Source of the DNA: a virus
Strand: one strand, 5' to 3'
DNA: 21,773 nucleotides
Virus record (IMG/VR): IMGVR_UViG_3300008266_001107
Location: 1-21,773 of that record
The notes below the pieces were generated by a model that was not told the DNA's origin, made no database searches, and was given only the letters and a program-made list of their open reading frames with translations. Below, one piece after another: positions 289 to 21,400 of the stretch (position 1 is its first letter; every line of letters begins with the position of its first letter). The position numbers and the translations under genes were made by a program.

Positions 289-307
289 AATATTATTATA
301 CTACAAA

Positions 308-1993
308 TTAAGATAGGCCAAAGCGGGTCTTGTAAGAATTATACTCTTGTTGAATTTCTGCTACAGAAAGCGCTTTTGTATAAACTCTAGCAATTGCAAT
401 TTTGCCACGAAGAGTTTCAAATATATCTGATCTGGTTCCTAAACCAACTGGAGTATTAACTTGTTTTTCTGTTGTTAGACCTTCGGTATTATCATTGCCA
501 TAATTTAAAGATGTAATCAAGTTTCCATTATTTTGATACCATCTAGCAAATCCATCTGAAACATCATAAGTCCATACAGACAATGTCCATGTATTGGCTG
601 ACCACGAATTTGTATTTAAGTCTCCGTTTGCACCAGCAATAACTGTACTGGAATTATGATGATAATCTCCTGTTGGATCAACAATATGGTTAAATTGACC
701 ACTTATATTATCATAAGATGAATCAATATTGTAAAATCTTGATAGCAAAACTTGTCTGCTTGTTTGATCACTTTGAAACCAACAAACTAAACTAACACTT
801 CTAGCTCTATTTAATTCTGTCCATTTATATTTTTCTGAAGCTAAAAATCTTGCATATCCCGCAGCATTACCAAAATTTAAAAATCCTCCATTAGCAGTTC
901 CATATGTTAAAGAACCTCCAGTAATTAATGGTATTTCACTAATATCTCTGTGTGCTAAAGATGTTCCAGATGGAATAGTTGCTCCATCTGAATATACTAG
1001 ATCAGCTGCATCAAAATCTAAAAATAATTCATCTTTTGTATACAAATCTGTAAAGTTTTTACTTTCTCCAAATGTTATGCTGCCGTTGCCTAAATACTTA
1101 TAAATTCTATATCCATTTGCTATAGTAACTATTGGATTTCCTGTAGTTAATGCTGGTGCATATTTACTTGGATATCTTAGAATAACAACTCCAGAACCTC
1201 CGTGTCCACCCATAGACCTATTTCCAGCTCCTCCGCCGCCACCAGTACCTGGCTGCCCATTTTGACCAGGATGTCCTTTATCTCCAGCTGGGTTTCCAGC
1301 ATTTCCTCCGCCACCAAGTCCTCCTGATCCAGAAGCAGCTCCACCATTTTGAGCGCTTCCTCCGCCGCCGCCTGCATAATAAGTTGGTATTCCAGTTATA
1401 GAAGACTGAACTCCAATTCCACCATTAGTTCCTGTAGTTGATGTATTTACATCTCCACCAGGACCACCTGCACCGCCACCGCCACCACCTGGATAATATG
1501 GAGAAGTCCATGAATTTGTTCCTATAGAGTTTCCTCCACGATATCCTTGTCCAGCAATTCCAGCTCCTCCAGGGGCATTATTGTCTGGATTTCTTTGTCC
1601 ACCTCCAGAACCTCCAACTTCTGCTTGTTCTGCTCCTGCTTGTGCAGCGCTACCTGCGCCTCCGCCATATGCAACAATATTATGAAAAGCTGACTTATGT
1701 CCGTTTTCTACTCTTTGAGTTGCTGTATCTCCTACTACTCCTCTTCCTCCACGACCAACTATAATTCTGTATGTTACTCCAGGAGTTATTTGAAAAACTG
1801 GTTCCGCTGAAGCTCCGCCACCAGATGATTCTCCTTGAACAGAAGATCTATATCCACCAGCACCACCGCCGCCACAAGAATAGTATGCTCCTGCACCACC
1901 GCCGCCGCCGACAACAATATATTCTAGTGTAGGAGGAAGTGCTCCAGACAAACTTGAACTTTTTGTATTAGAAGAAAATCTTTTTGTAGACAT
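308..1993 (-). CDS. Tail adhesin: glycine-rich domain fused to a C-terminal LamG domain (561 aa)
   Basis: Residues about 25-280 are a glycine-rich region with many GGGGG/GGGxG runs, beginning with YIVVGGGGGAG and ending with GGSGVVILRYPS. This resembles the poly-glycine domains of phage receptor-binding tips, in which packed poly-glycine II helices form a sandwich (described for gp38-type adhesins). Residues about 320-555 form a LamG-like jelly roll (DFDAADLVYSDG near the start, KIAIARVYTKALS near the end), a fold typical of carbohydrate binding. The gene starts with an ATG that overlaps the TAA of the upstream 307-residue gene (TAATG), so translation is probably coupled. The glycine-rich half is paralogous to that neighbour; both end it with a similar YKY/YKF..G.G.I strand. 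The receptor-binding role is inferred. Confidence 0.8.
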   Translation of the reverse strand: MSTKRFSSNTKSSSLSGALPPTLEYIVVGGGGGAGAYYSCGGGGAGGYRSSVQGESSGGGASAEPVFQITPGVTYRIIVGRGGRGVVGDTATQRVENGHKSAFHNIVAYGGGAGSAAQAGAEQAEVGGSGGGQRNPDNNAPGGAGIAGQGYRGGNSIGTNSWTSPYYPGGGGGGAGGPGGDVNTSTTGTNGGIGVQSSITGIPTYYAGGGGGSAQNGGAASGSGGLGGGGNAGNPAGDKGHPGQNGQPGTGGGGGAGNRSMGGHGGSGVVILRYPSKYAPALTTGNPIVTIANGYRIYKYLGNGSITFGESKNFTDLYTKDELFLDFDAADLVYSDGATIPSGTSLAHRDISEIPLITGGSLTYGTANGGFLNFGNAAGYARFLASEKYKWTELNRARSVSLVCWFQSDQTSRQVLLSRFYNIDSSYDNISGQFNHIVDPTGDYHHNSSTVIAGANGDLNTNSWSANTWTLSVWTYDVSDGFARWYQNNGNLITSLNYGNDNTEGLTTEKQVNTPVGLGTRSDIFETLRGKIAIARVYTKALSVAEIQQEYNSYKTRFGLS

Positions 1994-2916
1994 TAGTAAA
2001 CTATTGTTCCTGTTCCAGTAAATTTATATACATAAAAATCTCCATCTATAATTTCTGTAACTGTTCCAGAAGTAGAAGCAGCTTTGAATAAAGATCTTAA
2101 AACTATAATACCAGATCCACCATTTCCAGATGCAGTTTCATATGAACCTCCACCTCCACCACCTGTATTTGCTTGTCCATTTATATTTGTATCCCAAGCA
2201 GTTCCTGCAGAACCTCTTCCACCACTTCCACCACCGCCTATTCCACCAGGCCCTCCAACTCCACTGTTTCTACTTCCGCCACCACCACCTGCATAATAAG
2301 TTAGTGTTCCAGTTATTAAATATCCTAAGCCATTACCTCCTGCGCCGCCTCTACCTCCTAAAGCTGACGCACTTGATCCTGGAGATCCTGCTCCGCCACC
2401 ACCGCCGCCGCCTACATTTGTTTCTCCAAAGCCTCCTGGATTTCCCTGTAAAGGAGTTCCAAAACCGTATACTGATGCATCTGGAAATTCTGGACCACCG
2501 CCGCCAGAGCCACCAGTAGATTTTGATCTATCTAAAGATCTTGTCATTCCGCCGCCGCCACCAATAGCTGTTAAAGTTGTAAATCCAGATCCAGAAATAG
2601 AAGAATCTTGTCCTTTATCTCCATGAGATCCAACTCCATTTCCACCATTACCAACTGTACATGTATATGTAATTCCACGAGTTAATTCTAATGCTGGACC
2701 ATTTGGAGTTTTTGGTTTTTCTGAACCGTAATATAAAAGACCTCCTGCACCTCCGCCTCCTGCTCCACCACCAACACTCGTGCCGCAGCCTCCGCCTCCT
2801 CCAGCAACTATTAAAGCTTCTACGCTTATTGTTGATTTAAATGGAGATAGAGAGGCATTTAAAAATCTTAAATTACCTTTAGTAAGAGATGAAAAGCTAA
2901 GCCTAGAAAATCCCAC
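1993..2916 (-). CDS. Glycine-rich tail adhesin (307 aa, GTG start)
   Basis: After about 30 N-terminal residues (LSFSSLTKGNLRFLNASLSP) nearly the whole protein is glycine-rich. It begins EALIVAGGGGGCG and has repeated GGGGG blocks separated by short strands such as GITYTCTVGNGGNG and YYAGGGGGSRN. It closes with GGSGIIVLRSLF and a short YVYKFTGTGTIVY strand. The pattern matches poly-glycine phage receptor-binding domains, and the protein is a shorter paralogue of the N-terminal half of the next gene, without its LamG domain. The start codon is GTG, preceded by AGGAG with a 7-nt spacer, which supports this choice. The gene follows the 110-residue protein by 11 nt in the same operon. Function as a host-recognition tip is inferred from composition and context. 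Confidence 0.75.
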   Translation of the reverse strand: MGFSRLSFSSLTKGNLRFLNASLSPFKSTISVEALIVAGGGGGCGTSVGGGAGGGGAGGLLYYGSEKPKTPNGPALELTRGITYTCTVGNGGNGVGSHGDKGQDSSISGSGFTTLTAIGGGGGMTRSLDRSKSTGGSGGGGPEFPDASVYGFGTPLQGNPGGFGETNVGGGGGGGAGSPGSSASALGGRGGAGGNGLGYLITGTLTYYAGGGGGSRNSGVGGPGGIGGGGSGGRGSAGTAWDTNINGQANTGGGGGGSYETASGNGGSGIIVLRSLFKAASTSGTVTEIIDGDFYVYKFTGTGTIVY

Positions 2917-2927
2917 GGCTACTCCTA

Positions 2928-3260
2928 TTAAACTATCTCAGAACCAAATGCTTGGAAAGTTAAATCTGCAGCAGATGCATATACTTGAATTGAATTTCCA
3001 GTAGCAAGCGTCAGGCCTAGAGTTAGTGCCGTAGTATCATTTGCTGGAATAGAAACATCATAAGCAATATAATGTTCATTTGCTAATGTTGTACCTGTTG
3101 TTGGTTTAATTGCAATACGATATGTTCTTGCTGATGCTGATCTATTACATACTGTAATTGTTGAAATTACAGCTGAAGTTGAAGATGGAACAGCATAGAG
3201 CTCTTCCATTGTAGTAGCAGCAGAAGCTTTTCTTCCTAGTACTTTATATGCTGTTGGCAT
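2928..3260 (-). CDS. Small beta-rich virion-associated protein (110 aa), paralogue of the 130 and 151 aa proteins
   Basis: The protein is short, rich in Thr, Ser and Ala, and predicted to be mainly beta strands. It contains STITVCNRS, ARTYRIAIKP, NEHYIAYDVS and GNSIQVYASAADLTFQAFGSE. The same pattern (a 'T..VCN/ANK' strand, a 'V..VP/IKP' strand, 'Y..YD', and 'G..VYVRA...SFSL.G') occurs in the proteins at 9302-9694 and 13807-14262, so the three are paralogues. Proteins of this type are seen beside tail-fibre genes in aquatic phages, but I know no defined function. The gene starts one base after the TGA of the 414-residue fibre, with GGAG inside that gene's last codons, so the two are translationally coupled. 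A role as fibre-associated cap or adaptor is a guess. Confidence 0.7.
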   Translation of the reverse strand: MPTAYKVLGRKASAATTMEELYAVPSSTSAVISTITVCNRSASARTYRIAIKPTTGTTLANEHYIAYDVSIPANDTTALTLGLTLATGNSIQVYASAADLTFQAFGSEIV

Positions 3261-3261
3261 A

Positions 3262-4506
3262 TCATGCTCCCATCAATAAGAATACATCTGGCAGTGGGTC
3301 TGTTGTAATGGTAGCCCATGATGCCGATGTTCCATTTGTTGTTAAATACTTCCCAGAATTATTAGTTTGAGAAGGAAGGGCATCTACCGTTGCCCAAGAA
3401 ACTACTGAACCATCTGTTGTTAAAAATTTTCCTGTATTTCCAGATTGAAGTGGATATTCAGCTTTACTATTTATTTGTGTTTGAATTGCTGAAGTTACTC
3501 CATTTAGATATTGAAGCTCTGTATTAGAAACATCGCCAACAATTAAAGATGTTGCATCAATTGCTCCAACTTTAATATCTGCATATGCCAATCCTGCTCC
3601 CGCAAAATTTACAATACCAGAAGCTGGGGCAACAGTTGTATCTTTAAAGAATTTATAAACTCCATCAGTAGCGTCACGAACAATACCTGTATATTTTGCA
3701 GTTCCGCTAACACCATAATTTCCAACAATACCAAGGTCTAGTGCGTCTGTTGTGTTTCCGCTACCAACTGTAACTTGAGCATCTGAAACTGAAAGTGTAG
3801 TTGTTGTAAGAGTTGTTCCTGTTCCGCCGAATGTAATGTCTCCTTGTATATTTACATCTCCCTGAATACCAACTCCGCCGACAACTGTAAGTGCACCAGT
3901 GCTTGGAGATGTTGAAGCAGTTGGAATTTCGACATGGACATTTACGCCAGGAGTGATAACCATTTGAGTATCATCAGATGATAGACCACCAGCTGCAAAA
4001 ATAATTTTGTTCTGTGTGCCCGTTGAATCTGTTGCAAGAACTAAATTACCTCTGTCATTTTGATCATTACCTGAACCTGATACGAAAATATATCCGTCGC
4101 CCTTTCCAGTAATAGTAAAATCTGGATCGGCAAAATTAGTTGAAGTCATACCAATATCGATCCAGCCTGTATCGTCTGTACCGTCATTTGTATAAAGAAT
4201 TAAATCTGTTGATGCATTTGCTGCAGAACTTGTATTTCTAAATGCTATTTGAGCATAGTCTGGTTCGTTTGTTTGAAATACTGCAATTGGATTTGTAAGA
4301 CCTGAACCGAATGCTGAAGCAAGATTTCCTACATAAAGAATTGATTGAACTGTTGCTGTATCAAATACGCCAGCTATTGTTTCTGCGTTTGCAAGAGCTT
4401 CGATTGCCTTGGATACATATACAAGATCTTTGGCTGTATATTGTGAGGCGGCTAAGCCAGCATTAATCTCTGACTTGACGTTGGTAATTTCTGTTGTAAA
4501 TGGCAT
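3262..4506 (-). CDS. Tail fibre protein, cassette 3 (414 aa)
   Basis: This is the shortest of three paralogous fibres. Residues about 1-45 are the conserved N-terminus (ITNVKSEINAGL, then DLVYVSKAIEAL), probably the virion-attachment part. The middle carries the shared block with GWIDIGMTS, FTITGKGDGYIF, NKIIFAAGGLSSDDTQM and GALTVVGGVGIQGD. Near residue 325 there is one NTELQYLNGVTSAIQTQ unit, a repeat familiar from phage fibres. The C-terminus has two SGK(F/Y)LTT(D/N)G...SWAT units. It lacks the roughly 80-residue insert present in the other two fibres. AGGAG at 4512-4516 precedes the ATG by 5 nt, and a TATAAT box lies just upstream, so this gene heads its own transcription unit. The 110-residue gene follows immediately. 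Confidence 0.85.
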   Translation of the reverse strand: MPFTTEITNVKSEINAGLAASQYTAKDLVYVSKAIEALANAETIAGVFDTATVQSILYVGNLASAFGSGLTNPIAVFQTNEPDYAQIAFRNTSSAANASTDLILYTNDGTDDTGWIDIGMTSTNFADPDFTITGKGDGYIFVSGSGNDQNDRGNLVLATDSTGTQNKIIFAAGGLSSDDTQMVITPGVNVHVEIPTASTSPSTGALTVVGGVGIQGDVNIQGDITFGGTGTTLTTTTLSVSDAQVTVGSGNTTDALDLGIVGNYGVSGTAKYTGIVRDATDGVYKFFKDTTVAPASGIVNFAGAGLAYADIKVGAIDATSLIVGDVSNTELQYLNGVTSAIQTQINSKAEYPLQSGNTGKFLTTDGSVVSWATVDALPSQTNNSGKYLTTNGTSASWATITTDPLPDVFLLMGA

Positions 4507-4523
4507 ATTGTCTCCTATTAGAA

Positions 4524-4532
4524 ATTATAGCA
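4524..4532 (-). promoter_or_regulatory. Extended -10 promoter for the 414 aa fibre cassette
   Basis: Reading leftward, TGCTATAAT occupies 4532-4524: a perfect TATAAT with the TGn extension. No convincing -35 hexamer is present at 16-18 nt (GGGTTT is the nearest), which extended -10 promoters tolerate. Transcription would start near 4517, directly in front of the AGGAG at 4516-4512, giving a leader of only about 11 nt. The same arrangement precedes the 683 and 636 aa fibre genes. Confidence 0.6.
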
Positions 4533-4542
4533 TTAATTAGGT

Positions 4543-4701
4543 TTAAACCCCTATATTAAGCTGTAAGTCCTCTATATTTTCTTCCGCTGCTGTCATTCTA
4601 GCACTTAAAGAAGCGTCTAGAGCGGCAAGGTCGGTATTCAGTTCATCAAATTGATTTACGATATCTAGGCTTATGTACCTATTGGTTAAATATCCTGGCA
4701 T
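4543..4701 (-). CDS. Small coiled-coil protein (52 aa) between adhesin and next cassette
   Basis: The ATG at 4699-4701 overlaps the TAA of the 838-residue adhesin gene (TAATG), and the frame is open for 52 codons to a TAA at 4543-4545. An AGAGG lies 6 nt upstream of the start, inside the preceding gene. The protein begins MPGYLTNRYISLDIVNQFDE. It continues with a hydrophobic heptad-like pattern (IVNQFDELNTDLAALDASL, then AAEENIEDLQLNI), indicating a single amphipathic helix or coiled coil. The first eight residues are polar/aromatic and might contact a partner. Its position, where the other cassettes carry a small beta-rich protein, suggests a small virion or assembly component such as a trimerisation or chaperone peptide. 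That role is inference only. Confidence 0.65.
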   Translation of the reverse strand: MPGYLTNRYISLDIVNQFDELNTDLAALDASLSARMTAAEENIEDLQLNIGV

Positions 4702-7217
4702 TATCTACCTCTGGCATACTTAAATGGTGATTCTGCAAAAGCAGCATAAACGTATGTCATTCCACTTCCATTATTATTAGAGTTAGTATCTCTTATTTTA
4801 AACCCATTTGATAAAAAGTCAACCGTTACGTTTCCGACCTCATCATTATTTACAAAGTTAGGGTAGAGGCGATTTGTAGCATTTGTTATGTTAACTGGAT
4901 CTCTTTTACTGTCCATAAGATTCCAAAAATCCCCGCCAGCATCAGTTCTTTTAATAAGAACCCAAGCTGGTCTAAAACCTAAATAAACAAATGGTCCATC
5001 ATCTGAAGTAGTACCCCTGTAAGAAGCAAACTGACTATACCCAGGAATATCTGTCCAGCAATAAGCTATAACATTTCTATTAGTGCCATACCAATAATTA
5101 TTTTGATTATTCTGATAAATTAAAGTTGAGCTTGGAGTCGTGTTATCCCAGGGGCCTCCTTGAGTTTCTGGAGCATCAGTTGAATTTATTTTTAATCTTT
5201 TTGTAGGTCCTATACTAGCATGATAAATATCCCAGTTATATGCATCGGTAGTATATCCACCTTTTACCATAATAAATTTTGGAGCTTTGCCTAAACCATG
5301 ACCAACTGTGTAGGCATTTAAATTATTTCCAGTGTTATATTTAACAATAGAAAAACCTGATGCTTGGTTTACTCTTACTGTTGATGTAACAGTTCCATTA
5401 TTATTAGTTAAGTCTGTTGCCCCTGCATCCCAGCACCAAGCAATATAATTTTTGCCGTTCTCATTTGTTCTTGTAGAGCTTCCTGGATTAAATCCTGTTT
5501 GATTAAAAGAATTTAATCCAGTGGCTAAAGTTTGTTCTATATCTGTTTTATCAGTGCTTAAATGTTTAGTTGTTCCTCTAAGGACATCATAAAGCATATT
5601 GTTTGAAGATCCATCTGCATAATCACTTCTATTTTTAATCCAAACTAAGTCTGGAGAAAAATTGAGTCCACCTACAGAAGTAGAACCGTTACTATTTCCT
5701 GCATACAAAACTGCATCATAGTATTGATTTGGAATAGATATTGCTGGAGTTGGTAAATTTTTGGTACATAAAGTTTTAAAATTAGTTGGAGCAGTATAAG
5801 CAAATGGTCTTTGTCCAAAATTAAAATCAATGACTTGAGTAGTAGATCCAGTTCTAGCTCCAAACGAGAGAATGATTGGGCCAGTTCCAGCAAGTGTTCC
5901 TATTGGATTTGTTCCAGTTGAGGGATTTCCGCTATTGTACCAGCTATTATTATTTCCCATATAAATTTTACGAGTATCAGAATCAATAGCTACTTGAAAT
6001 ATTGCTCCATTGCTTATAGCAGAAGTTGCTACTCCAGATCCTGTTGCTGAATTGTAATATCCGTAACTTCCCCAAGGATTAGCAGCACCGTACGCAATAC
6101 AGTGACCAATATTATTATTTAAATTATCTGCGTCTTTGACATAATGCCAAAAAAATCCAGATCCACCTGTGCTTATTTGAGTATAGGTTGCTTCATAATA
6201 CCATTTACCAGAATTTGGTGGGATTACAAAGGTGCTACCTCCAGAGTTAGAATCACCTGTAGTATTAGAGGTTAGTTGTAGGTTTCCTTTTCCATAAGTA
6301 AACCCAATTCCATCTGGAGTATAAGAGCTTCTATCAAGAGGATTCAATGTTGCATAATTTCCTCTTACTTCTCCGCCAAGACCAGTGTCAGTTCCATAAT
6401 CGGTAGGAGTATCTAACAGAGCATCATTTTGTATTCCTGCCGCAACGCTAAATCCGCTAGGGGTAAAATTATTTCCATTACCAGAAAAATCTTTTCCTAA
6501 AGTTGTTGCCGTCGTTCCAGATGTATCACTAAAATTTAAGTATACTCCATTTGTTCCATAAGACCCTGAATATTGTTTAGGAACCCATTGTCCAGTAGCA
6601 GAATCTATTTCTCCAAAAGATGATGGGGTTAAAGCTTGCCCATCAATATGATGATATTCAGCAATATATCCATTTGATAAGTTCGGAGAACTCCATGCTT
6701 CTCTTCCAATGTAATGCGTTCTTCCAGAAACATTAATATTTGTAAAATTAAAATTTTGAGATGGATATGTAGCAGTACTGAAATCAGTAATTTGATTTCC
6801 ATTTACATAAATTTTCATTCTATCACTAGCGGTAGCTAAAGTTGTATCTACAGATACAACGACGTGATACCAAGATGCAAAATCTTTAAATACTGTAGAT
6901 GTTACTAATCTTGCCGCCAATCCGCTATTTCCTGAATTTGCTAAAAGAACATCCAAGGTATCACCTGGATTAAATGCAACATTGTCAAACCACCCAGAAC
7001 CGCTAAAATTACTATAGCTTCCTAAATAAAGATATGCGCCAGTAGAAGACCTTTTAGCCCAAGTACTTAAAGTAAATTTATTTGTATTTCCAGTTGCACT
7101 TGGAGTTCTTGAAAGCTGAGAGCTTTCTGCACTCTCAATGCGTAAACTATTAGCAATTTTATATTGTGCTCTAGACCCGCTAGATGCAATCACTCCTGCT
7201 AATAGGCGGCGTGACAT
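4701..7217 (-). CDS. Large multidomain tail adhesin: LamG, SPRY-like and repeated beta domains (838 aa)
   Basis: Residues about 25-215 form a LamG-like domain (FTLSTWAKRSS, MKIYVNGNQI, GYIAEYHHIDGQ). Residues about 300-480 look SPRY/B30.2-like (GKWYYEATYT, IFQVAIDSDTRKIYMG, FNFGQRPFAYTAP). From about 505 to the end there are three related strand motifs, PDLVWIKNR, PKFIMVKGG and PAWVLIKRT, each followed by aromatic-rich segments including YIAWCWD and VIAYCWTD. This arrangement is recurrent in fibre or baseplate adhesins of marine and freshwater phages, and binding of cell-surface glycans is the likely role. The gene starts one base after the stop of the 683-residue fibre, with GGCGG as a weak ribosome site, so coupling is likely. 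It is the largest protein in the window and is intact. Confidence 0.75.
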   Translation of the reverse strand: MSRRLLAGVIASSGSRAQYKIANSLRIESAESSQLSRTPSATGNTNKFTLSTWAKRSSTGAYLYLGSYSNFSGSGWFDNVAFNPGDTLDVLLANSGNSGLAARLVTSTVFKDFASWYHVVVSVDTTLATASDRMKIYVNGNQITDFSTATYPSQNFNFTNINVSGRTHYIGREAWSSPNLSNGYIAEYHHIDGQALTPSSFGEIDSATGQWVPKQYSGSYGTNGVYLNFSDTSGTTATTLGKDFSGNGNNFTPSGFSVAAGIQNDALLDTPTDYGTDTGLGGEVRGNYATLNPLDRSSYTPDGIGFTYGKGNLQLTSNTTGDSNSGGSTFVIPPNSGKWYYEATYTQISTGGSGFFWHYVKDADNLNNNIGHCIAYGAANPWGSYGYYNSATGSGVATSAISNGAIFQVAIDSDTRKIYMGNNNSWYNSGNPSTGTNPIGTLAGTGPIILSFGARTGSTTQVIDFNFGQRPFAYTAPTNFKTLCTKNLPTPAISIPNQYYDAVLYAGNSNGSTSVGGLNFSPDLVWIKNRSDYADGSSNNMLYDVLRGTTKHLSTDKTDIEQTLATGLNSFNQTGFNPGSSTRTNENGKNYIAWCWDAGATDLTNNNGTVTSTVRVNQASGFSIVKYNTGNNLNAYTVGHGLGKAPKFIMVKGGYTTDAYNWDIYHASIGPTKRLKINSTDAPETQGGPWDNTTPSSTLIYQNNQNNYWYGTNRNVIAYCWTDIPGYSQFASYRGTTSDDGPFVYLGFRPAWVLIKRTDAGGDFWNLMDSKRDPVNITNATNRLYPNFVNNDEVGNVTVDFLSNGFKIRDTNSNNNGSGMTYVYAAFAESPFKYARGR

Positions 7218-7218
7218 A

Positions 7219-9270
7219 TTAAGCCGCCAAATTGCCGATTAGCAAGAATGTATTACTTGCTGTCACAATTATTTGACAAGAAGCATACTGGCCAGATAGT
7301 TTATACTGATTATTATAAGAATTCATAGTTCCACTAGATGCAAATGTGAGTTGACCAGTTCCAGTTTGAACAACAGTTATTACGCTACCTGTTGCAAAAA
7401 CTCCTGTTGGAATTGTAATTGTTCCAGCAGTTGACCCATTTGATGCAAGTACCAACTTGTCTTTGTCTCCAGCAACTAAAGTATATGCATTTGCAGAAAA
7501 TACTGGAGTTGTAGTTGTTTGAAGTAATGGAGTATATGTAGATGAAGCTGTAGAAGAATCTAGTTTAGCAGATAGCTGTGTTTGAATACTGGAAGTAACT
7601 CCATCTAGATAACCTATTTCTGTTGAATCTACTGTTCCAATTGAGGTTGTGCTAGGCAACACTACTGTTCCAGTAAATGTTGGAGATGCTATAGGTGCAT
7701 ATGTGCTAGAAGCAGTTGAGCTATCTAATTTAGCGCTTATTTGTGTCTGAATTCCAGATGTAACACCAGATAGATAACCAATTTCAGTATTTGTAACAGA
7801 ACCAATTGTTGCAGAAGATACTTCTAGAGCTCCCGCCTTAAATGGTGCAAATGTGAGTCCAGCTTCTGAAAAGTTAATTGTTGATGTAGGTTTTGTAGTT
7901 GCATCCCTAAATGCTTTAATCACTCCGTCTGAAGCATCTCTTGCAATACCAGAGAACTTTCGACGGGCATTTACTGTTGCTGTTCCAACAGGAGATACTG
8001 CTGCTGATGTTACATTTGTTGCAGTTTTAGTATATGTAAATGTTGTTGAAGTAGGAACTGTTTTAATATTATAAGTTCCATTAAATGTAGCGTCAACTCC
8101 TGTAATTGTAACTACATCTCCTACTAAAAATGTATGGTTTGCAGATGTAGTCAATGTTGCAAGATTATCTGTCAACGCCTTGTTGCTTACGCTAGCTACA
8201 ATTGGGGAAACTGTTGTAGCATATTCACCAATAAACGCTAGGTCTACAATATCTGCTTGATTATTTGTACCAACAAATACTGCTGGATCTGTAACTGCAA
8301 GATTGGATGTTTCTACAGTTGTTCCGCCACCGCCAAATGTAATAGTTCCTTGAATTGAAACATCTCCATCAACATTCATATCTCCTTGAATACCAACTCC
8401 ACCGACTACAGTTAATGCGCCAGTAGTAGCAGAAGTAGAAGGAGTTGCTATTTCAATATGAACATTCTCATCTGGAGTAATAGTCATTTGAGTATTGTCG
8501 CTTTGAAGACCTCCAGCGGCAAATACTATTTTATTTTCTGTACCATTACCGCCAGTAGCAAGAACTAAATTACCTGTTCCTGAAGAATCTGCTGGAGCTT
8601 CCATAAATATGTATCCATCATGGATTCCAGTAATAGTAAAGTTTGGATCTGCAAATGAGCTTGAAGTAATACCCATATCAATCCAGCCAGCATTGTCATC
8701 GCCATCATCTGTATATGCAATATAATCTGTAGATGCAGCTGAGCCAGCATTTGTATTTTTAATTACAAGCTGTGCGTAGTCTGGTTGATTTGTTGAAAAT
8801 ACCGCCATTGGATTTGTATATCCATCAGTTGTTCTAAGTCCTGCAGACAAAGATCCAACATTTAATTGATCAGCTACTGTAACATCATCTAATGAAACTG
8901 CATTTGTCCATGAAGTTGTAGTTCCATTTGTAGTTAAAAGTTTTCCAGAGTTTGATGTTTGTGAAGGAAAAGCGTCTACTGTAGCCCAGGATGTTGTTGT
9001 TCCATTAGTTGTTAAAAATTTTCCAGAATTTGCACCTTGGGAAGGAATTGCATTTAAAAGTTGAGATAAAGGAACATTACCAGTTCCATCTAATCCTGCT
9101 ACGCCATTTGCTGTACCCTTAAGACTAAGAAGAGATACACCTTCTGATACCTCTATTGCTGCCGCCACAGCCTTTGTGAGCAGTAGGTAATCCTGTGCGC
9201 TTAAGCTAACGCTGGCAGTATTAAGCTTTGCCTGTAGCGCTGCGTCAAATGTAGTTAAATTAAATGGCAT
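7219..9270 (-). CDS. Tail fibre protein, cassette 2 (683 aa)
   Basis: The N-terminus (FDAALQAKLNT, QDYLLLTKAVAAA) matches the other fibres. Residues about 76-122 hold two SGK(F/L)LTTNGTTTSW units, which in the 414-residue paralogue sit at the C-terminus. Residues about 150-350 are the shared block (DYAQLVIKNTNAG, GWIDMGITSSSF, NKIVFAAGGLQSDNTQM, GALTVVGGVGIQGD). Residues about 355-435 form an inserted domain (FLVGDVVTITGVDATFNG, VPTSTTFTY). Two 55-residue units with NTEIGYLSGVTSGIQTQ and STEIGYLDGVTSSIQTQ follow. The C-terminus is beta-rich (FATGSVITVVQTGTGQLTF). AGGAG lies just before the ATG with a promoter directly upstream. A trimeric fibre is likely from the repeats and family; the receptor is unknown. 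Confidence 0.85.
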   Translation of the reverse strand: MPFNLTTFDAALQAKLNTASVSLSAQDYLLLTKAVAAAIEVSEGVSLLSLKGTANGVAGLDGTGNVPLSQLLNAIPSQGANSGKFLTTNGTTTSWATVDAFPSQTSNSGKLLTTNGTTTSWTNAVSLDDVTVADQLNVGSLSAGLRTTDGYTNPMAVFSTNQPDYAQLVIKNTNAGSAASTDYIAYTDDGDDNAGWIDMGITSSSFADPNFTITGIHDGYIFMEAPADSSGTGNLVLATGGNGTENKIVFAAGGLQSDNTQMTITPDENVHIEIATPSTSATTGALTVVGGVGIQGDMNVDGDVSIQGTITFGGGGTTVETSNLAVTDPAVFVGTNNQADIVDLAFIGEYATTVSPIVASVSNKALTDNLATLTTSANHTFLVGDVVTITGVDATFNGTYNIKTVPTSTTFTYTKTATNVTSAAVSPVGTATVNARRKFSGIARDASDGVIKAFRDATTKPTSTINFSEAGLTFAPFKAGALEVSSATIGSVTNTEIGYLSGVTSGIQTQISAKLDSSTASSTYAPIASPTFTGTVVLPSTTSIGTVDSTEIGYLDGVTSSIQTQLSAKLDSSTASSTYTPLLQTTTTPVFSANAYTLVAGDKDKLVLASNGSTAGTITIPTGVFATGSVITVVQTGTGQLTFASSGTMNSYNNQYKLSGQYASCQIIVTASNTFLLIGNLAA
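7530..7807 (-). repeat. Tandem 55-residue fibre repeats inside the 683 aa gene
   Basis: Two direct repeats with a 165-nt period lie inside the fibre gene (compare 7560-7641 with 7725-7806). They encode units containing IG.V..TEIGYL.GVTS.IQTQ.SAKLDSSTASSTY.P. The second copy is truncated after the Pro. Single units also occur in the 414 and 636 aa fibres. The nucleotide copies have diverged, so duplication is not very recent. Confidence 0.7.
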
Positions 9271-9287
9271 TTTATCTCCTCTTGGCT

Positions 9288-9316
9288 ATTATACCTTTAT
9301 GCTAAATATCAAGCAA
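9288..9316 (-). promoter_or_regulatory. Sigma70-type promoter for the 683 aa fibre cassette
   Basis: Reading leftward, TTGCTT at 9316-9311 and TATAAT at 9293-9288 are separated by 17 nt. The predicted start near 9281 falls at the AGGAG ribosome site, giving a leader of about 11 nt before the ATG at 9270. The -35 lies within the end of the preceding 130 aa gene, so the cassette is separately transcribed even though the genes are almost contiguous. Confidence 0.65.
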
Positions 9317-9694
9317 CGCTATATTAGTAGCGAAGGCAATATCTGCTTCTAGGTCTGCTAGCTCCGTTCCTGGTATATTTGTATCATCAATTCCAGACAG
9401 GCTAAAAGAAATATCGCCAGAGCTTGCTCTGACATATACCTTATCTCCCGTCATAACTGGAAATCTAAAAGTTTCTAAAGAGTCATTTCCGCCAACTGGT
9501 GTATCATAAGATACATAAGAATGATTTGCTGGTGTAGCATCTTGATCTAGTGGAACAACCCAAACCCTAATTGTGGCGGGATCAGAAGATTTATTAGCTG
9601 CAATAATAGATGATAATATAGTTCTAACTCCAGTATAAATTAAAGTGCTTGTATTTGAAGATGGATTAGATGTTGCTAGTCTAGAAATAGCCAT
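9302..9694 (-). CDS. Small beta-rich virion-associated protein (130 aa), paralogue of the 110 and 151 aa proteins
   Basis: The protein starts MAISRLATSNPSSNTSTLIY and continues with IRVWVVPLDQ, NHSYVSYDTPV and GDKVYVRASSGDISFSLSGID. It aligns by eye over its full length with the 151-residue protein at 13807 (MAVQRLGISNPALNTSTLIF, ARAWVVPSG, GDTVYVRADTANMSFSLNGI) and less closely with the 110-residue protein. The ATG overlaps the TAA of the 717-residue adhesin (TAATG), implying coupled translation. The C-terminal DLEADIAFATNIALLDI looks helical. No enzymatic motif is visible. It closes a cassette, and its last codons carry the -35 of the next promoter. A structural role next to fibre or adhesin is inferred from this recurring position. 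Confidence 0.75.
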   Translation of the reverse strand: MAISRLATSNPSSNTSTLIYTGVRTILSSIIAANKSSDPATIRVWVVPLDQDATPANHSYVSYDTPVGGNDSLETFRFPVMTGDKVYVRASSGDISFSLSGIDDTNIPGTELADLEADIAFATNIALLDI

Positions 9695-11847
9695 TATTGC
9701 CTCTTAAATTCCTCAACTGGAGCAGTAAATGCACCAGTATATCTGGCAAATCTTGATACTCTAAAATCATCTATGTATCCATTAAATGTTCCTTGAGATG
9801 GATTTGGGTGATTTCCTAAAGTTAATCTATTGTTTGCCGCAGAGCTTAGATTATTATTAGTACTTGTACTTCCTACAAAAATTCCATTAAAGTATAAAGA
9901 GGTAGTTCCATTATTTCTGCACAAGGCTACGTGTGTCCAACTATTTAAGGGCAAAACAGAACTAGAGGTAATTAGAATAGAGTCGTTGTTTCTATATTGT
10001 AAAGTACCATCAGTATTTATATTTAATCCAAAGTCATTGCTTAATGAACTGCCAACACACCATAGTCTTCTAAACAAGTTTTCTACAGTCCAAGTTGTTG
10101 GATAAAACCAACCTTCTACTGTAAAATTACCAGTTCCTATACCAATTAGAGGTTTGTTTGAGGTAAAAATTATATCTCCAGACCCATCAAAGACCATGCT
10201 CCCGCTTCCATATTTTTTAACAGAAGTAGATATCTTAACATCTCCAAATGTTTCAATATTATTATTTCTTGTTGCGTCTATAATTTCTGTATTTTCCGCT
10301 TTTAACAAAAGTCTTGTTCCAGAAACATTTGAAAGTGGAGCAGTTGGTGGAGTAAAATTAGCAGTATAAAGTCTTGTACCTGGTAATATTCTTAGATTTG
10401 ATATATATCCATTCCAATAATTTTGAGCTTCTACGCTTGATGGTCCACCACCAACATGAAACTGTTCTCCAGAAGCATAATTTGACACATTTGTAATTCC
10501 ACTATATATACCATCTGAAGCAATTTGTGCACCGTTATTAGCATCTGTATATCGAAGTAAACTTTGAGAAACACCATTTATGTATATAGCAACCGAAGAT
10601 CCATTTAAATCAAAAGCTATATGATTCCATTCTTTTAGTCTTATCGAACCACTTGAATCTATCCAACATTGTTTTGTTCCGTCATACCAATACCATCTAA
10701 CTCTTCCAGTTTCACGAATACCCAAATTCATAAAAGTATTACCCTTATTCCAGAATGATCTGTGCATATAAGGAGTTGTAGATGTGGCATGACTATCTAA
10801 ATATACCCAAGTTTCTAATGTTCCAGTTCTAGAGCCATTTTGCTGTAACCATGAAGAATAAGCTGTGTAAGGATCAGAATTATTTCCTACTTGGATTTTA
10901 TCATCTGTTCCATCAAAGTAATAGGAAGCTCCGTCTGTTGTTGCATATGGAGACATGCTTCTAAATGGAGAGAATGAAGAAATTTCTGGAGTTCCTCCGC
11001 CTGCAAATATTGATAAATCATTAGCAGACAAATCTTTACTCCATCTATTTGATTGATTTGCTAAAAATGATGTATTTGTAACTGCTGTTAATTTATTTGT
11101 AGGTGGAGTAAATGCAGATGTATATAATGCTGTTCCTTTTATAGTTCTAAAATTAGAAATATATCCTTTAAAATAGTTATTATTACTACTATCACTTATA
11201 CCAATAACACAACCGTATGTTCCAGAACCATTAATATTTAAAGTGCTTGTTCCAGATTGTCTTAGTTGTCCATCTAAAAATAAACGAACTGTATTAGATG
11301 TATCTCTAGTTACTGCTATATGTCTCCATCCAGTTCCACGAATATCTATATTGTCTGTAAGACGTAACCCGCCGCCACCATTATTCATATCAACTGCAAT
11401 TCCACCAGCAGTTCCATATGAAGAATCCATTAGATATATTGCTACACCGTTTTGATTAAATCCTACACCACCAACAGATGCCATAGCAGTCCAGTATGAT
11501 TGAATATTTACATCAGGAGTAACATTTACCCAATATTCTATGGTAAATTCACCTGTACCAAATTGAAATGCGGTGTTTTGAGAAACTTGCGAATATGAAG
11601 ATCCATTATAATAAACAGAATAATTATCTAAAAATGGGCTAAATGATCCTGGAGAAACATTTGATATTTTAGTTAAAAAGACATTATCAGAACTATAGTC
11701 AGTAAAAGTACTATTAGATCCTAGATTATTTCCATTACCAGATAAAAGTAGCGTAACTCTATTAAAGAACTCATCAAAAGCACCTAAGAAAGATGTTAAT
11801 CCAAATCCTTTTGCCGCTGCCGCTGCAATTGTTTCTAATAGTGGCAC
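9694..11847 (-). CDS. Tail adhesin with three LamG-like domains (717 aa, GTG start)
   Basis: Three concanavalin A/LamG-like domains follow one another. The first (about 75-250) has YSVYYNGSSY, FTIEYWVNV, VRLFLDGQLRQSG and GYISNFRTIKGTALYTSAF. The second (about 295-500) has YYFDGTDDKIQVGN, GTLETWVYLDS, VAIYINGVSQS and GYISNLRILPGTRLYTANF. The third (about 545-712) has SMVFDGSGDIIF, FTVEGWFYPT, SLYFNGIFVGS and GYIDDFRVSRFARYTGAF. Such domains bind glycans, so the protein is probably a host-surface adhesin. The first 30 residues (AAAAAKGFGLTSFLGAFDEF) may be a virion-docking segment. The start codon is GTG, with AGGAGG 9 nt upstream in the short gap after the 636-residue fibre. Domain triplication suggests avidity for repeated sugars, which is inference. 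Confidence 0.8.
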   Translation of the reverse strand: MPLLETIAAAAAKGFGLTSFLGAFDEFFNRVTLLLSGNGNNLGSNSTFTDYSSDNVFLTKISNVSPGSFSPFLDNYSVYYNGSSYSQVSQNTAFQFGTGEFTIEYWVNVTPDVNIQSYWTAMASVGGVGFNQNGVAIYLMDSSYGTAGGIAVDMNNGGGGLRLTDNIDIRGTGWRHIAVTRDTSNTVRLFLDGQLRQSGTSTLNINGSGTYGCVIGISDSSNNNYFKGYISNFRTIKGTALYTSAFTPPTNKLTAVTNTSFLANQSNRWSKDLSANDLSIFAGGGTPEISSFSPFRSMSPYATTDGASYYFDGTDDKIQVGNNSDPYTAYSSWLQQNGSRTGTLETWVYLDSHATSTTPYMHRSFWNKGNTFMNLGIRETGRVRWYWYDGTKQCWIDSSGSIRLKEWNHIAFDLNGSSVAIYINGVSQSLLRYTDANNGAQIASDGIYSGITNVSNYASGEQFHVGGGPSSVEAQNYWNGYISNLRILPGTRLYTANFTPPTAPLSNVSGTRLLLKAENTEIIDATRNNNIETFGDVKISTSVKKYGSGSMVFDGSGDIIFTSNKPLIGIGTGNFTVEGWFYPTTWTVENLFRRLWCVGSSLSNDFGLNINTDGTLQYRNNDSILITSSSVLPLNSWTHVALCRNNGTTSLYFNGIFVGSTSTNNNLSSAANNRLTLGNHPNPSQGTFNGYIDDFRVSRFARYTGAFTAPVEEFKRQ

Positions 11848-11859
11848 TTAGCCAACCTC

Positions 11860-13770
11860 CTATGCAAATTTAACTTGTGAAGCGAGAACTGTATACGTTG
11901 CTGATGCAGTTTTAATAATTGTAAAGGTATATGAATCTATTGAGTTAGCATTTCCTGCAGTTGGTGCTGTTCCACCTTGCCATTTTACAGTAACCCCAGC
12001 TGCTGTTCCATCAATCTGAAAAGCGGTAGGATAATATGCTGTAGTATTAGTTGCTAAAAATGCTACAGTAGCAGATTGACCAACAGAAAGTAAAGAGTTT
12101 AAAGTAGTTCCAGAATTACCACGGAAATTAAATGTCCAGTTAGCTGCTGAGTTTCCTGTATAGTAATGAACTGCTGCTGTAGACAAGTCTACGTTAACTG
12201 TTCCAGTTGCTTGTGTTGCAGAAACTGAAACTGTTTCAAATGCTGATGTTAAAACTGGACGTACAAGAGAAGCTGCAGTAAGCGGTGCATAATTTGAAGC
12301 TGCTGCTGCAGATTTTAAGTATCCTTGTCCAACAACATACGCTGTTGTAGCAATTTGAGTTGTATTTGTATCTACTGCTGCAGTTGGAGCAGTAGGAGTT
12401 CCAGTTAATGCTGGTCCTGATAATGGTGCGTATGTTGATGATGCTGTTGATGTTCCGAGCTTAGCGTCTAATTGTGTCTGAATTGCAGATGTTACACCAT
12501 TCAAATACTGAAGTTCTGTGTTAGAAACATCGCCAATTGTGGCTGAGTTTGCAGTAATTACATCTGCAGCAATATCATCTACCTGAATATCTGCATATGT
12601 TAGTCCGCCTTCAGCAAAATTTACTGTAGTTGATGGCTTAGTTGTAGCATCTTGGAAAAACTTTACTACTCCGTCGCTTGCATCACGAACAACACCAGCA
12701 AATTTGCGCTTTGCAGAAACAGTTACAGATCCAACTGGAGAAACTGCTGCGCTAGTTACGTTTGCCGCATCTTTTACAAATGTGAATGTTGTTGATGTTG
12801 GAACAGATTCAATAACGTGTGTTCCATTAAATGTTGCATCTACTCCAGTAACTACTGCAATATCTCCAGCAGCAAATCCATGGGCTGTTCCTGTTGTAAG
12901 TGTAGCAACATCTGAAGCAAGAGCTTTATTTGTAATTGTATTTGTTACAGGAGAAATTCCTGTTGCATATTCTGCTAATAGACCTAGATCTAATGCGTCT
13001 GTTGAGTTATTATTACCGACGAAAATGATTGAATTATCTACTGCAAGAGATCCTGTTTGAACTGTAGTTCCAGTTCCACCGAATGTAATATTACCTGCAA
13101 TATTAACATCACCCTGAATTCCTACACCACCGACAACTGTTAGTGCTCCTGTTGAAGGAGATGTTGAAGCTGTATTAATTTCAATATGAACATTTTCATC
13201 TGGTGTAATTGACATTTGCTCATTATCTGAAGATAATCCGCCTGCTGCAAATATAATCTTGTTTTCTGTACCAGTGCTATCTGTTGCTAAAACTAAATTT
13301 CCTTTACCAGTGGTTCCTGTTGGAGCAGACATAAATATATATCCATCATTTGCACCTGTAATTGTGAAGTTTGGATCATTAAATGCGCTAGATGTAATAC
13401 CCATATCGATCCAGCCTGTTTCATCTGTACCATTATTTGCATACGCTAAGAAATCTGAAGAAGCACTAGCTCCACTAGATCCATTCTGTAGTGCTACTTG
13501 AACATAAGCATTTGCTGATTTCTTAACAACAAGTGTTGGGTTTGTAAGAGCTGCGCTAGTAGAAAATGCCTCTGCAGTTGAGCCAAGATATATATTATTT
13601 AGAACTGTGATCTCATCGACATCATCTGGTGCGACGACTTTACTTAATGCTTCAAGAGCTTTGGCAACATAGACCAAGTCCTGAGCTGAATATGCAGATG
13701 CGGCAAGAGACGAGCTGATCTCGTTCTTTATGTCCGTAATCTGTGTTGATAAACTTGAATAATTTGGCAT
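11860..13770 (-). CDS. Tail fibre protein, cassette 1 (636 aa)
   Basis: The N-terminus (ITDIKNEISSSLAASAYS, then DLVYVAKALEAL) is very close to that of the 414-residue fibre. The shared central block is present (GWIDMGITSSAF, FTITGANDGYIF, NKIIFAAGGLSSDNEQM, GALTVVGGVGIQGD). The roughly 80-residue insert (HGFAAGDIAVVTGVDATFNG, VPTSTTFTFVK) follows, then one NTELQYLNGVTSAIQTQ unit and an APTAAVDTNTTQIATTAYV segment typical of phage fibres. The C-terminal 120 residues form a different beta domain (NWTFNFRGNSG..LNSLLSVGQS, FTIIKTASATYTVLAS), probably a fibre tip or shaft end. AGGAG precedes the ATG closely, and a strong promoter lies directly upstream. The 717-residue adhesin follows after 12 nt. 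Confidence 0.85.
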   Translation of the reverse strand: MPNYSSLSTQITDIKNEISSSLAASAYSAQDLVYVAKALEALSKVVAPDDVDEITVLNNIYLGSTAEAFSTSAALTNPTLVVKKSANAYVQVALQNGSSGASASSDFLAYANNGTDETGWIDMGITSSAFNDPNFTITGANDGYIFMSAPTGTTGKGNLVLATDSTGTENKIIFAAGGLSSDNEQMSITPDENVHIEINTASTSPSTGALTVVGGVGIQGDVNIAGNITFGGTGTTVQTGSLAVDNSIIFVGNNNSTDALDLGLLAEYATGISPVTNTITNKALASDVATLTTGTAHGFAAGDIAVVTGVDATFNGTHVIESVPTSTTFTFVKDAANVTSAAVSPVGSVTVSAKRKFAGVVRDASDGVVKFFQDATTKPSTTVNFAEGGLTYADIQVDDIAADVITANSATIGDVSNTELQYLNGVTSAIQTQLDAKLGTSTASSTYAPLSGPALTGTPTAPTAAVDTNTTQIATTAYVVGQGYLKSAAAASNYAPLTAASLVRPVLTSAFETVSVSATQATGTVNVDLSTAAVHYYTGNSAANWTFNFRGNSGTTLNSLLSVGQSATVAFLATNTTAYYPTAFQIDGTAAGVTVKWQGGTAPTAGNANSIDSYTFTIIKTASATYTVLASQVKFA

Positions 13771-13786
13771 TTTAGTCTCCTACAAT

Positions 13787-13814
13787 ATTATAGCATTCTG
13801 GTCGTATTAATCAA
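13787..13814 (-). promoter_or_regulatory. Sigma70-type extended -10 promoter for the 636 aa fibre cassette
   Basis: Reading leftward, TTGATT (13814-13809), a 16-nt spacer and TATAAT (13792-13787) form a good promoter, with TGC directly before the -10. The predicted start near 13780 coincides with AGGAG at 13781-13777, so the leader is only about 10 nt. The -35 lies at the stop of the upstream 151 aa gene. Confidence 0.65.
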
Positions 13815-14262
13815 ATATCCCTAGACCTAATTCTATGGCAATTAGGCGGTTATTTAGAGAATTTGTCGTGCTCACAGTTACTAGCTGTGATGTATCTGCA
13901 ATTCCATGTACATTTGTAGTCTGAGTAAGGTGGCTATCAAATGAGGCGGTGGAATCATAAATACCATTTAAAGAAAATGACATATTTGCGGTATCTGCTC
14001 TCACATATACCGTATCGCCATTTTGTACTGCAAATCTGTGTGACTCTATTGAATTGTATGCTGGAACGTCTACATCATATAGAATATATCCATATTGAGA
14101 AGCTAAGGTTGCTCCAGAAGGTACTACCCAAGCCCTAGCCTTTTTTGCGGTAGTATCTTTATTTGTGGCAATAACGGAGGCCATATATGAAGCGGTAGCC
14201 GTAAATATCAATGTGCTTGTATTAAGAGCTGGATTAGATATTCCTAAGCGTTGAACTGCCAT
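13807..14262 (-). CDS. Small beta-rich virion-associated protein (151 aa), paralogue of the 130 and 110 aa proteins
   Basis: The first 110 residues repeat the paralogue pattern: NTSTLIFTATASYMASVIATNK, ARAWVVPSG, YGYILYDVDVPAYN and GDTVYVRADTANMSFSLNGI. An extra C-terminal tail (LTQTTNVHGIADTSQLVTVS, NNRLIAIELGLG) ends in a helix-like segment. It starts with an ATG preceded by AGGAGG at good distance; that ribosome site lies within the last codons of the stop-interrupted gene upstream, so the two belong to one operon. No catalytic motif is present. Recurrence of this family next to every fibre group points to a structural partner of the fibres. The tail could be an oligomerisation helix, but I cannot show this. 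Confidence 0.75.
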   Translation of the reverse strand: MAVQRLGISNPALNTSTLIFTATASYMASVIATNKDTTAKKARAWVVPSGATLASQYGYILYDVDVPAYNSIESHRFAVQNGDTVYVRADTANMSFSLNGIYDSTASFDSHLTQTTNVHGIADTSQLVTVSTTNSLNNRLIAIELGLGIFD

Positions 14263-14263
14263 A

Positions 14264-14614: not shown

Positions 14615-14623
14615 TTAATCCCC

Positions 14624-21281: not shown

Positions 21282-21375
21282 TGTACGGGTTGTAGCATCC
21301 CACCAACTTTTGCTCCCCGTGCTTACGCTTCGGCGTAGCAAGACCCAATCGGATCCGCCTCTGATTGGGTTTTGT
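21282..21375 (+). ncRNA. Predicted small structured RNA (about 95 nt) with its own promoter and terminator
   Basis: There is no convincing reading frame on this strand here. The predicted transcript contains three elements in order. ACGGG (21285-21289) can pair with CCCGT (21316-21320); TTG/CAA extends the helix. A second hairpin (21321-21339) has TACGC and GCGTA closed by a TTCG tetraloop, one of the most stable RNA loops. The third is an 8-bp intrinsic terminator. Promoter, compact folding and terminator together fit an independent small RNA rather than a leader, because the terminator precedes the next gene's own promoter. The family is not recognised: it is not a tRNA (no T-loop consensus) and has no known riboswitch core that I can see. 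Confidence 0.55.
21343..21375 (+). terminator. Intrinsic terminator of the small RNA
   Basis: ACCCAATC (21343-21350) pairs perfectly with GATTGGGT (21363-21370) around a 12-nt loop, followed by TTTGTCCTTT. It ends the predicted small RNA and separates the lysis operon from the structural gene at 21401. The opposite strand lacks a U-run at the right place, so it acts rightward. Confidence 0.65.
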
Positions 21376-21394: not shown

Positions 21395-21400
21395 AAGAGG

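Follow-up and report, generated by a model that had tools for sequence, protein, structure and literature searches.

Tip-matched adhesin N-termini and candidate plug-and-socket mounts in a phage fibre gene array

How can adhesins of quite different kinds be carried by fibres that are closely related to each other? The question is raised by a virus record of 21,773 bases (IMG/VR record IMGVR_UViG_3300008266_001107; hereafter the window), whose minus strand carries an array of three fibre genes, each followed by one or more large adhesin genes that differ from slot to slot. The fibres fibA (11860–13770, 636 amino acids [aa]), fibB (7219–9270, 683 aa) and fibC (3262–4506, 414 aa) form a single paralogous family, as an earlier note on this DNA had proposed, with fibB and fibC 49% and 56% identical to fibA respectively. 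A search of 50,697 phage records with fibA matched 31, none of them over 80% of fibA, and the three fibres are therefore closer to each other than to phage fibres generally. We consider it probable that the locus encodes distinct plug-and-socket mounts bearing swappable receptor-binding tips, in several composite host-binding fibres. The plug would be the first 12–20 or so residues of an adhesin, and the socket would be the C-terminal tip of the fibre or a small adapter placed after it. The plug type would be specific to each mount, so that an adhesin would be addressed to its own fibre. Since the remainder of the adhesin would not be constrained in this way, recombination among phages could place different bodies (LamG, glycine-rich, DUF7483, fn3, PASTA and others) after one and the same plug, or may alternatively replace tip, adapter and plug together.

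Tip class and the first residues of the next gene

Adhesins of one slot are alike mainly in their first residues. Condensed by eye, the plugs read MPLLETxxSSS..FGL after class A1 tips, MPIITTIRGN..PFGK after A2, MPFxxSxRGxxGAQG after B, xxILFGxMAGQGG or SRRLLAGVIASSGS after N, and MSKRAGRKSQSQNDFLxP or MARxFGRHGRRKxxVPNLSG after T0; the plug is MAISRxSxSxLxxGxPK after sm110, a 110-aa adapter encoded downstream of fibC (2928–3260), and MGLSVFPAPS after a second, 100-aa adapter family. In the window, fibA has a class A1 tip (about its last 125 residues) and the slot A adhesin (9694–11847) starts MPLLET..., a plug that we place at 11797–11847 (about residues 1–17, an extent that is a judgement). 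The tip of fibB (about its last 105 residues) is of class N, and the plug of the slot B adhesin (4701–7217) is MSRRLLAGVIASSGS. The third fibre, fibC, ends ..FLLMGA and is followed by sm110 and by two slot C adhesins, one with the plug MGFSRLSFSSLTKG (1993–2916, 307 aa) and one with the N-terminus MSTKRFSSNTKSSS (308–1993).

The tip class, or the adapter class where an adapter follows it, predicts about the first 12 residues of the next gene. Downstream proteins were assigned to seven classes by nearest neighbour, excluding neighbours from the same contig or with a similar body and without low-complexity masking; before counting, we removed proteins shorter than 80 aa, genes running off a contig end and duplicates sharing the first 60 residues. 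Using residues 2–13, the class was right for 148/169, 144/169 and 143/169 proteins at body expect value (E) thresholds of 0.01, 1 and 10 respectively, whereas three later 12-residue windows were right for 58, 64 and 57 of 169 (46–64 over the thresholds); the mean of 500 label shuffles was 0.26 and the largest 0.396. The count was 148/172 before three ribonucleotide reductases (RNRs) were removed by a sequence rule; two of these had been recognised in a Pfam scan and the third by its similar start. Assignment was right for 15/17 proteins of class A1, 4/4 of A2, 9/9 of B, 11/15 after the 100-aa adapter and 66/68 after sm110. Position matrices give a similar picture: for the sm110 class (72 proteins against 2,138 other genes) the area under the curve (AUC) is 0.965 at residues 2–11 and 0.83–0.84 in later windows, and for the 100-aa adapter class (n = 15) it is 0.978 against 0.69–0.85 further in.

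The two adapter families occur together in nine contigs, with different plugs. An S/TxFP motif, picked after seeing the data, is present after the 100-aa adapter in 10/15 proteins and after the 110-aa adapter in 0/72; within the nine contigs, a SxFP plug follows the 100-aa adapter in seven and the 110-aa adapter in none. Bodies were compared between the families with low complexity masked, and the 125 same-plug pairs without body similarity are thus an upper figure.

The strongest single comparison for what would be a functional pairing comes from fibC of two relatives, G002 and G003. The two proteins are 97% identical over 223 residues of the N-terminal half, but over their last 60 residues they show no relationship (25% of 55 aligned). 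In G002 the tip shares 65% identity with that of the window's fibB and falls in the same class; sm110 is absent from G002, and the gene after its fibC starts MTYPILFGVMAGQGG, a class N plug like that of the window's slot B adhesin. This is a natural tip replacement on a near-identical shaft, in which adapter and plug change with the tip.

We lean, with rather less assurance, towards a wider reading in which at least six mutually distinct plug-socket classes, with plugs of about 12 residues, would recur across the arrays of many aquatic phages, three or four to a genome. Each adhesin gene would then act as a cartridge meant for one particular mount, taken from a pool common to phages of different hosts, and the pairing would be readable from sequence alone. 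Neither the module boundary, which appears to lie about 12–20 residues inside the adhesin, nor the several apparent mount classes figured in the earlier note.

The conserved frame, its variable slots and the adhesin bodies

The small proteins of 130, 52 and 110 aa that had been assigned to the ends or interiors of three cassettes are present, but the phase of the cassettes was wrong. A fourth small protein, sm151 (13807–14262, 151 aa), precedes fibA, sm130 (9302–9694) precedes fibB and sm52 (4543–4701) precedes fibC; sm110 is the only one that follows its fibre. The unit is therefore better written as small protein, promoter-like element, fibre, adapter (if present) and adhesin or adhesins. 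Assembly of each fibre would probably proceed outwards from the base in the order of the genes, starting with the small, proximal protein, then a member of the shared fibre family, then the adapter (sm110, in one slot) and last the adhesin or adhesins. The proteins sm151 and sm130 are paralogues (42%), and the sm110 profile also detects sm151-type proteins, weakly.

A fibA scan of IMG/VR gave at least 79 loci; start sites were those of a simple gene caller made for this analysis, and up to 80 loci per search were taken from among the matches listed. The frame is identical in G002, G003, G004 and G006, the four relatives whose contigs extend across the array, so the genes do not appear out of cassette order there, and the slot contents vary in number and kind. 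It runs p404, p84, a fourth fibre-like gene, a variable block, a p246-type gene, sm151, fibA, slot A, sm130, p104, p83, fibB, slot B, sm52, fibC, sm110 (absent from G002), slot C and LamG589. Of these, the fourth fibre, the variable block, p246, p104 and p83 are missing from the window, whose fibB is also unlike that of the relatives in the N-terminal part and the tip.

Slot contents also differ between close relatives. G005 (locus L007, an IMG/VR contig of 35,319 bases) is 100% identical to the window across 14,502 bases and extends beyond its left end. Another locus, L210, is 98.7% identical to G005 over 3,512 nucleotides (nt) beginning 12 bases before LamG589, and 84–89% identical in parts of the sm52–fibC–sm110 region; its slot C has no DNA match to G005, and corresponding slot C adhesins of L210 and the window are unlike as proteins (E 0.20 and 2.2). 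Among pairs of loci whose LamG589 genes are at least 97% identical in DNA (n = 5), two have the same upstream gene, two have upstream genes that are partly similar and one has unrelated ones; at 80–90% identity (n = 27) the corresponding counts are 5, 3 and 19. These pairs were drawn from the 43 of 92 loci with a complete upstream gene, some of these genes look enzyme-like rather than like adhesins, and one partly similar pair at 97% or above and one partial pair at 90–97% look like start-call differences.

The adhesin bodies are of several kinds, broadly as the earlier note described. The slot A adhesin has three Laminin_G_3 stretches (Pfam, E 3.6e-50). The slot B adhesin has a C-terminal DUF7483 (PF24299, E 1.6e-101; 340 bits against a cut-off of 27, positions 2–330 of 330) where a SPRY-like domain had been read, with no SPRY match by Pfam at 4701–7217, and its N-terminus matches phrog_27411. 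Both slot C adhesins carry the glycine-rich domain Gly_rich_2 (PF21722; E 9.9e-18 for the first and 6.3e-14 for the second; the two scores, 53 and 65.4 bits, both exceed the cut-off of 24.3), and the LamG previously reported in the second is a match below the cut-off (1.3e-4). The DUF7483 protein has matches in 70 phage records, and in 44 of these the match spans 80% or more of its length; those listed (30 matches, 32–39% identity) include phages of Methylophilales, Pelagibacter, cyanobacteria and Roseobacter, and adhesin bodies are therefore drawn from a wide pool. A PDB match of this protein to an antibody chain (E 0.022) was borderline and judged to be chance.

Pfam families were tallied by class for proteins of at least 140 aa, with one truncated A1 member replaced by the full copy from L007 and with 60 of 66 sm110-class and 30 of 58 N and T0 members aligned. 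Class A1 (n = 16) has LamG in 4, fn3 in 2 and DUF7483 in 1; classes B and A2 (n = 13) have Gly_rich_2 in 7 and fibrinogen-C in 2; the sm110 class has Gly_rich_2 in 33 and LamG in 2; and N plus T0 have fn3 in 13, PASTA in 5, DUF7483 in 2, Gly_rich_2 in 2 and two RNRs wrongly included. The same body family is thus found on more than one mount: DUF7483 in A1 (1/16) and N/T0 (2/30), and Gly_rich_2 in B/A2 (7/13), the sm110 class (33/60) and N/T0 (2/30). Together with the conserved order, the different slot C adhesins of L210 and the covariation of tip class with adhesin N-terminus, this gives good support to the conserved mount with interchangeable modules that had been suggested for this DNA. Among genes after T0 or N tips are two with matches to RNR families and two with Hint or homing-endonuclease matches, possibly RNR inteins.

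Predicted structures were obtained for the adapter and one adhesin. The sm110 model (mean predicted local distance difference test [pLDDT] score 90.9) is an eight-stranded beta protein that we read as a jelly roll; among solved structures its closest folds (Z about 10) are those of plant HDT (nucleoplasmin-like) domains, of the trimeric cement protein of KHP40 and of the turret of HFTV1, and Foldseek alone gave no match for this model at E 0.001. The PHROG of sm110 is labelled 'unknown function'; sm110 relatives are encoded in at least 557 of 600 candidate stretches in IMG/VR, and sm110-like domains are present in some longer proteins. A PDB search with the small-protein profile returned PABP alone (E 0.48–0.68). 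In the model of the 307-aa adhesin (mean pLDDT 83.0) the first 24 residues are below 50 and the body is mostly confident, with a predicted glycine-rich fold that matches the Bxb1 tail-tip chain Qb (Z 13.1, 162 residues, 30% identity, root-mean-square deviation 3.0) and the Pam3 fibre (Z 10.7), the next, unrelated matches being at Z 5.3. The Pam3 glycine-rich domain is described as a proposed receptor-binding end resembling S16 gp38 (PMC9608196), and an account of Bxb1 associates polyglycine domains with the central fibre protein (PMC13252515). Sequence searches of the PDB with the slot C adhesin, fibA and the slot C profile gave no match, and we found no tip-adhesin fusions of the Rosetta-stone type among internal tip matches.

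A promoter had been proposed before each fibre, and the proposal stands in part. Each fibre is preceded by a gap of 31–36 nt with an exact TATAAT ending 16–17 nt before the ATG and a Shine-Dalgarno-like stretch between (13787–13792 before fibA, preceded by TG; 9288–9293 before fibB; 4524–4529 before fibC, preceded by TGC), and TATAAT recurs before the same genes in relatives. A generic sigma-70 and terminator scan showed no excess (61 promoters against 58.6 expected by shuffling) and was not used as evidence; support for the promoters is positional and comparative. A T4-type late promoter, TATAAATA, was rejected, with one match against 3.5 expected. Before LamG589 a TATAAT (295–300) ends 6 nt before the start, a spacing suggestive of leaderless-transcript geometry. 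Elsewhere, over 12 partly redundant contigs, 20 start codons have a TATAAT ending exactly 6 nt before them; G003, with 79 plus-strand occurrences of TATAAT in its 103,695 bases, accounts for 8.

The full minus-strand order is p115, p160, p404, an interrupted open reading frame (ORF), sm151, fibA, the three-LamG adhesin, sm130, fibB, the DUF7483 adhesin, sm52, fibC, sm110, two glycine-rich adhesins and LamG589, the conserved array end, whose start lies at 1–288 in the window and which is complete in G005. The frame begins with p115 (16334–16681), whose profile matches one solved chain, 26dk_M, named just 'Structural protein' (E 4.9e-5); p160 (15852–16334) is a collagen-like frame protein, and p404 (14624–15838) has a C-terminal domain common to virion proteins. 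The ORF at 14264–14614, a relative of p84, is broken by a stop. In the near-identical L185 the ORF runs uninterrupted for 149 aa and includes 98 bp that the window lacks; G005 begins 13 bases before the same point, and the deficit may be an assembly artefact or a real variant. No Pfam family was found in the three window fibres at E 0.01. Residues 265–356 or so of fibA are 53–60% identical to proteins of seven Microbacterium phage records, five of them annotated major tail protein, and the fibre genes contain long direct repeats (D1, D2 and D6) with copies about 4.3–4.7 kb apart.

Other genes lie near or within these arrays. In the window, a transglycosylase-like lysozyme gene (PF18896, 20053–20736) and a gene for a 105-aa protein with a PHROG match (21365–21682) are on the plus strand, divergent from the array. 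In relatives, a tryptophan halogenase gene (PF04820, E 6.5e-93; L094:208–1746) lies within the fibre array of G002, and a 2OG-Fe(II) oxygenase-like gene (PF13640; L093:8299–8880) in the variable block, with similar genes in other relatives. PASTA-domain proteins are encoded near the fourth fibre, at L093:7352–8302 (directly downstream of it) and L086:17386–17922. PASTA domains bind peptidoglycan, and these proteins would suit an actinobacterial host.

Genome context and competing explanations

Beyond the left end of the window, G005 continues through LamG589 (589 aa, LamG-like) to a portal, a head maturation protease, an Ig-domain tail-type protein and a 2,144-aa tape measure. The protease is nearest to those of Streptomyces phages, which supply 127 of the 162 matching records (that of Wofford, for instance, matches at 45% over its full length), and the array appears to belong to a siphophage-like virus related to Stanwilliamsviridae Streptomyces phages. 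The relative G003 (103.7 kb) is collinear with Wofford over glycosyltransferase, RNR, LamG589-like gene, portal, protease, capsid and tape measure; identities, measured on G003 and not on the window, are 58% for portal, 59% for major capsid protein, 46% for protease, 66% for RNR and 35% over 567 columns for tape measure. G003 also has a WhiB gene (PF02467, E 6.1e-11), and WhiB is treated as an actinophage marker in two published accounts (PMC10202952, PMC6802176). Because of this collinearity and WhiB, an actinobacterial host is likely for the group; a host search in genome contigs gave 88 pattern matches, none encoding a relative. Wofford, a member of the Stanwilliamsviridae, differs in having an endolysin and an HNH gene, and no fibre array, between RNR and the LamG589-like gene. 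The array is therefore one locus in an otherwise conserved genome plan.

A number of observations weigh against plug-and-socket tail fibres, some of them concerning location and others the meaning of the pairing. As to location, the array sits beside the portal gene, between RNR and portal, and the genes for tape measure and tail tip lie at a distance from it; the PHROG matched by p404 is one of head decoration, and the nearest folds to sm110 include a capsid cement protein (KHP40) and a turret (HFTV1). The products might then be head fibres or capsid decorations, with the N-terminal peptides acting as capsid- or adapter-binding signals rather than as plugs for fibre tips. This is the alternative that survives best, although we think it unlikely: the annotations of p115 homologues are tail fibre or L-shaped tail fibre assembly, the fold matches of the glycine-rich body are to tail-tip proteins, and a head location would leave the covariation intact. 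On the plug-and-socket reading the products would be present in the virion, attached to the tail and able to bind receptors.

As to the pairing, class N is weak in the assignment test (4/8) and T0 imperfect (39/48), the hidden Markov models for tip classes were built here from 2–5 sequences each, and related contigs are not independent. All eight similar-body pairs across the two adapter families involve one protein, and the window's second slot C adhesin has a partial glycine-rich match to the first of L210 (47% over 118 residues, E 3.3e-5). Physical contact between tip and plug is itself inferred. The plug is the part of the adhesin nearest to the fibre gene, and crossovers might often fall just inside the adhesin gene, where the upstream fibre supplies homology, so that the first residues would hitchhike with the tip by linkage only.

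Second genes in a slot, which lie one gene further from the fibre, bear on whether there is a plug beyond linkage. Their result is modest overall, with 31/68 right against 27/68 for a control window (shuffle mean 0.277, maximum 0.382). By slot, the counts are 22/30 for sm110 (control 18), 4/6 for slot B (control 1), 5/27 for T0 (several of which look enzyme-like), 0/3 for the 100-aa adapter, 0/1 for A1 and 0/1 for N. A matrix trained on first adhesins separated the 30 second genes of the sm110 slot from 1,494 others at residues 2–13 (AUC 0.863, p 4.9e-12), against 0.572 at residues 14–25 and 0.766 at 31–42; the number past the 99th percentile is the same, 11/30, at residues 2–13 and 31–42. In the close sm110 group, 10/17 second genes are past the 99th percentile of the 1,494 other genes. 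Non-adjacent second adhesins in this group and in slot B thus also carry the plug; moreover, plug and adapter change along with the tip on the near-identical fibC shaft of G002 and G003, and plug amino-acid patterns persist in strongly diverged contigs. The second-gene tests favour docking over linkage without proving it, and linkage alone is an improbable account.

Fibre chaperones are likewise encoded after fibre genes and matched to the fibre end, and the downstream proteins could mainly be fibre-specific folding chaperones like T4 gp38 or Tfa, which recognise the tip in assembly and then leave; T4 gp38 is described as absent from the virion (PMC9603124). The bodies here are lectin-like, glycine-rich, DUF7483, fn3 or PASTA, kinds found in binding proteins, and several unrelated bodies per tip class fit a tip-specific chaperone poorly, which makes this explanation quite improbable.

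Alternative expression, with a single cassette on at a time through its own promoter or a switch, had also been raised, and the separate promoter-like elements are all that speaks for it; they are alike and all face one way, five related records (all possibly fragments) have no resolvase, integrase or reverse transcriptase match (PF00239 for a Mu/P1-type invertase and PF00078 for a diversity-generating retroelement included), and a search of window positions 1–14700 with an exact 14-nt seed gave no inverted repeat reaching 20 nt. We regard alternative expression as very improbable. With the fibre genes on one strand and no switching enzyme found in those five records, the fibres are probably made together. 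Whether they would also be displayed at the same time is a further step; the several receptor specificities per particle suggested by the earlier note may be a result.

If the pairing of tip and plug is physical, the binding apparatus of uncultured phages would be readable as modules, with the plug naming the carrier fibre and the body hinting at the target. It would also give a concrete account of how host recognition is swapped without breaking fibre assembly, would make a simple biochemical test possible, and sm110 would be a widespread adapter without known function.

Comparison with known systems

In T-even phages the gene for a distal adhesin, gp38, follows that of the fibre gp37; the adhesin is attached at the fibre end and in some phages has a glycine-rich binding body. 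The array resembles this arrangement in T2 and Salmonella phage S16 in having a separate adhesin gene after the fibre and what appears to be modular host specificity. The slot A and B adhesins lie directly downstream of the fibre and those of slot C after sm110, and a glycine-rich body like those of gp38 and Pam3 is found in slot C only, slots A and B having other bodies. The differences are the several mounts per genome, short putative plugs, many unrelated bodies, a predicted jelly-roll adapter in one class and a siphophage-type genome. No PDB sequence match points to a gp37/gp38 relation, and S16 gp38 is absent among the fold matches listed.

Docking by short peptides has been described for branched receptor-binding proteins (RBPs). 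In K1-5/K1E/SP6, G7C, Klebsiella KP32/KP34, Menlow and PhiK64-1, second RBPs are reported to attach by conserved N-terminal peptides, some as short as 7–11 residues and differing between phage groups (PMC6872550). The likeness is a short conserved N-terminal peptide on otherwise divergent binding proteins. In those phages, however, the peptide is described as docking onto an anchor RBP, at a T4gp10-like domain, and the bodies are depolymerases, whereas here the partner would be a fibre C-terminal tip or small adapter, there are several plug classes per genome, and the bodies are lectin-like, glycine-rich or DUF7483. The Pfam search of the three window fibres at E 0.01 gave no T4gp10-like family, no HHpred-level search being made, and no Pfam depolymerase was found in the window adhesins or among the families listed for 119 class members, although Pfam can miss such folds. 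Our search of the literature turned up no account of a phage with several tip-matched plug classes, although as evidence of absence this is weak.

Bxb1, a mycobacteriophage, shares the predicted fold match to chain Qb and has a small protein gene shortly before the gene for its 267-aa glycine-rich gp33; it differs in having a single such unit, close to its tail-tip genes. The small protein, gp31, scored only 3.5 bits with the sm110 profile, and homology was not accepted. In the Ackermannviridae, TSP1–4 of CBA120 are described as an RBP cluster with conserved attachment parts and swapped receptor-binding parts (PMC8432352), and are thus similar in combining several RBPs in one cluster with conserved mounts and exchanged binding parts. 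No Pfam family corresponding to XD domains was found in the window fibres, with no structural search made with the fibres; the Ackermannviridae spikes are described as attaching through XD and TD domains, whereas here fibre and adhesin are encoded by separate genes and would be joined by short plugs. By analogy, the principle would be one common to gp38, to the docking peptides of K1-5 and Klebsiella phages and to the Ackermannviridae spikes.

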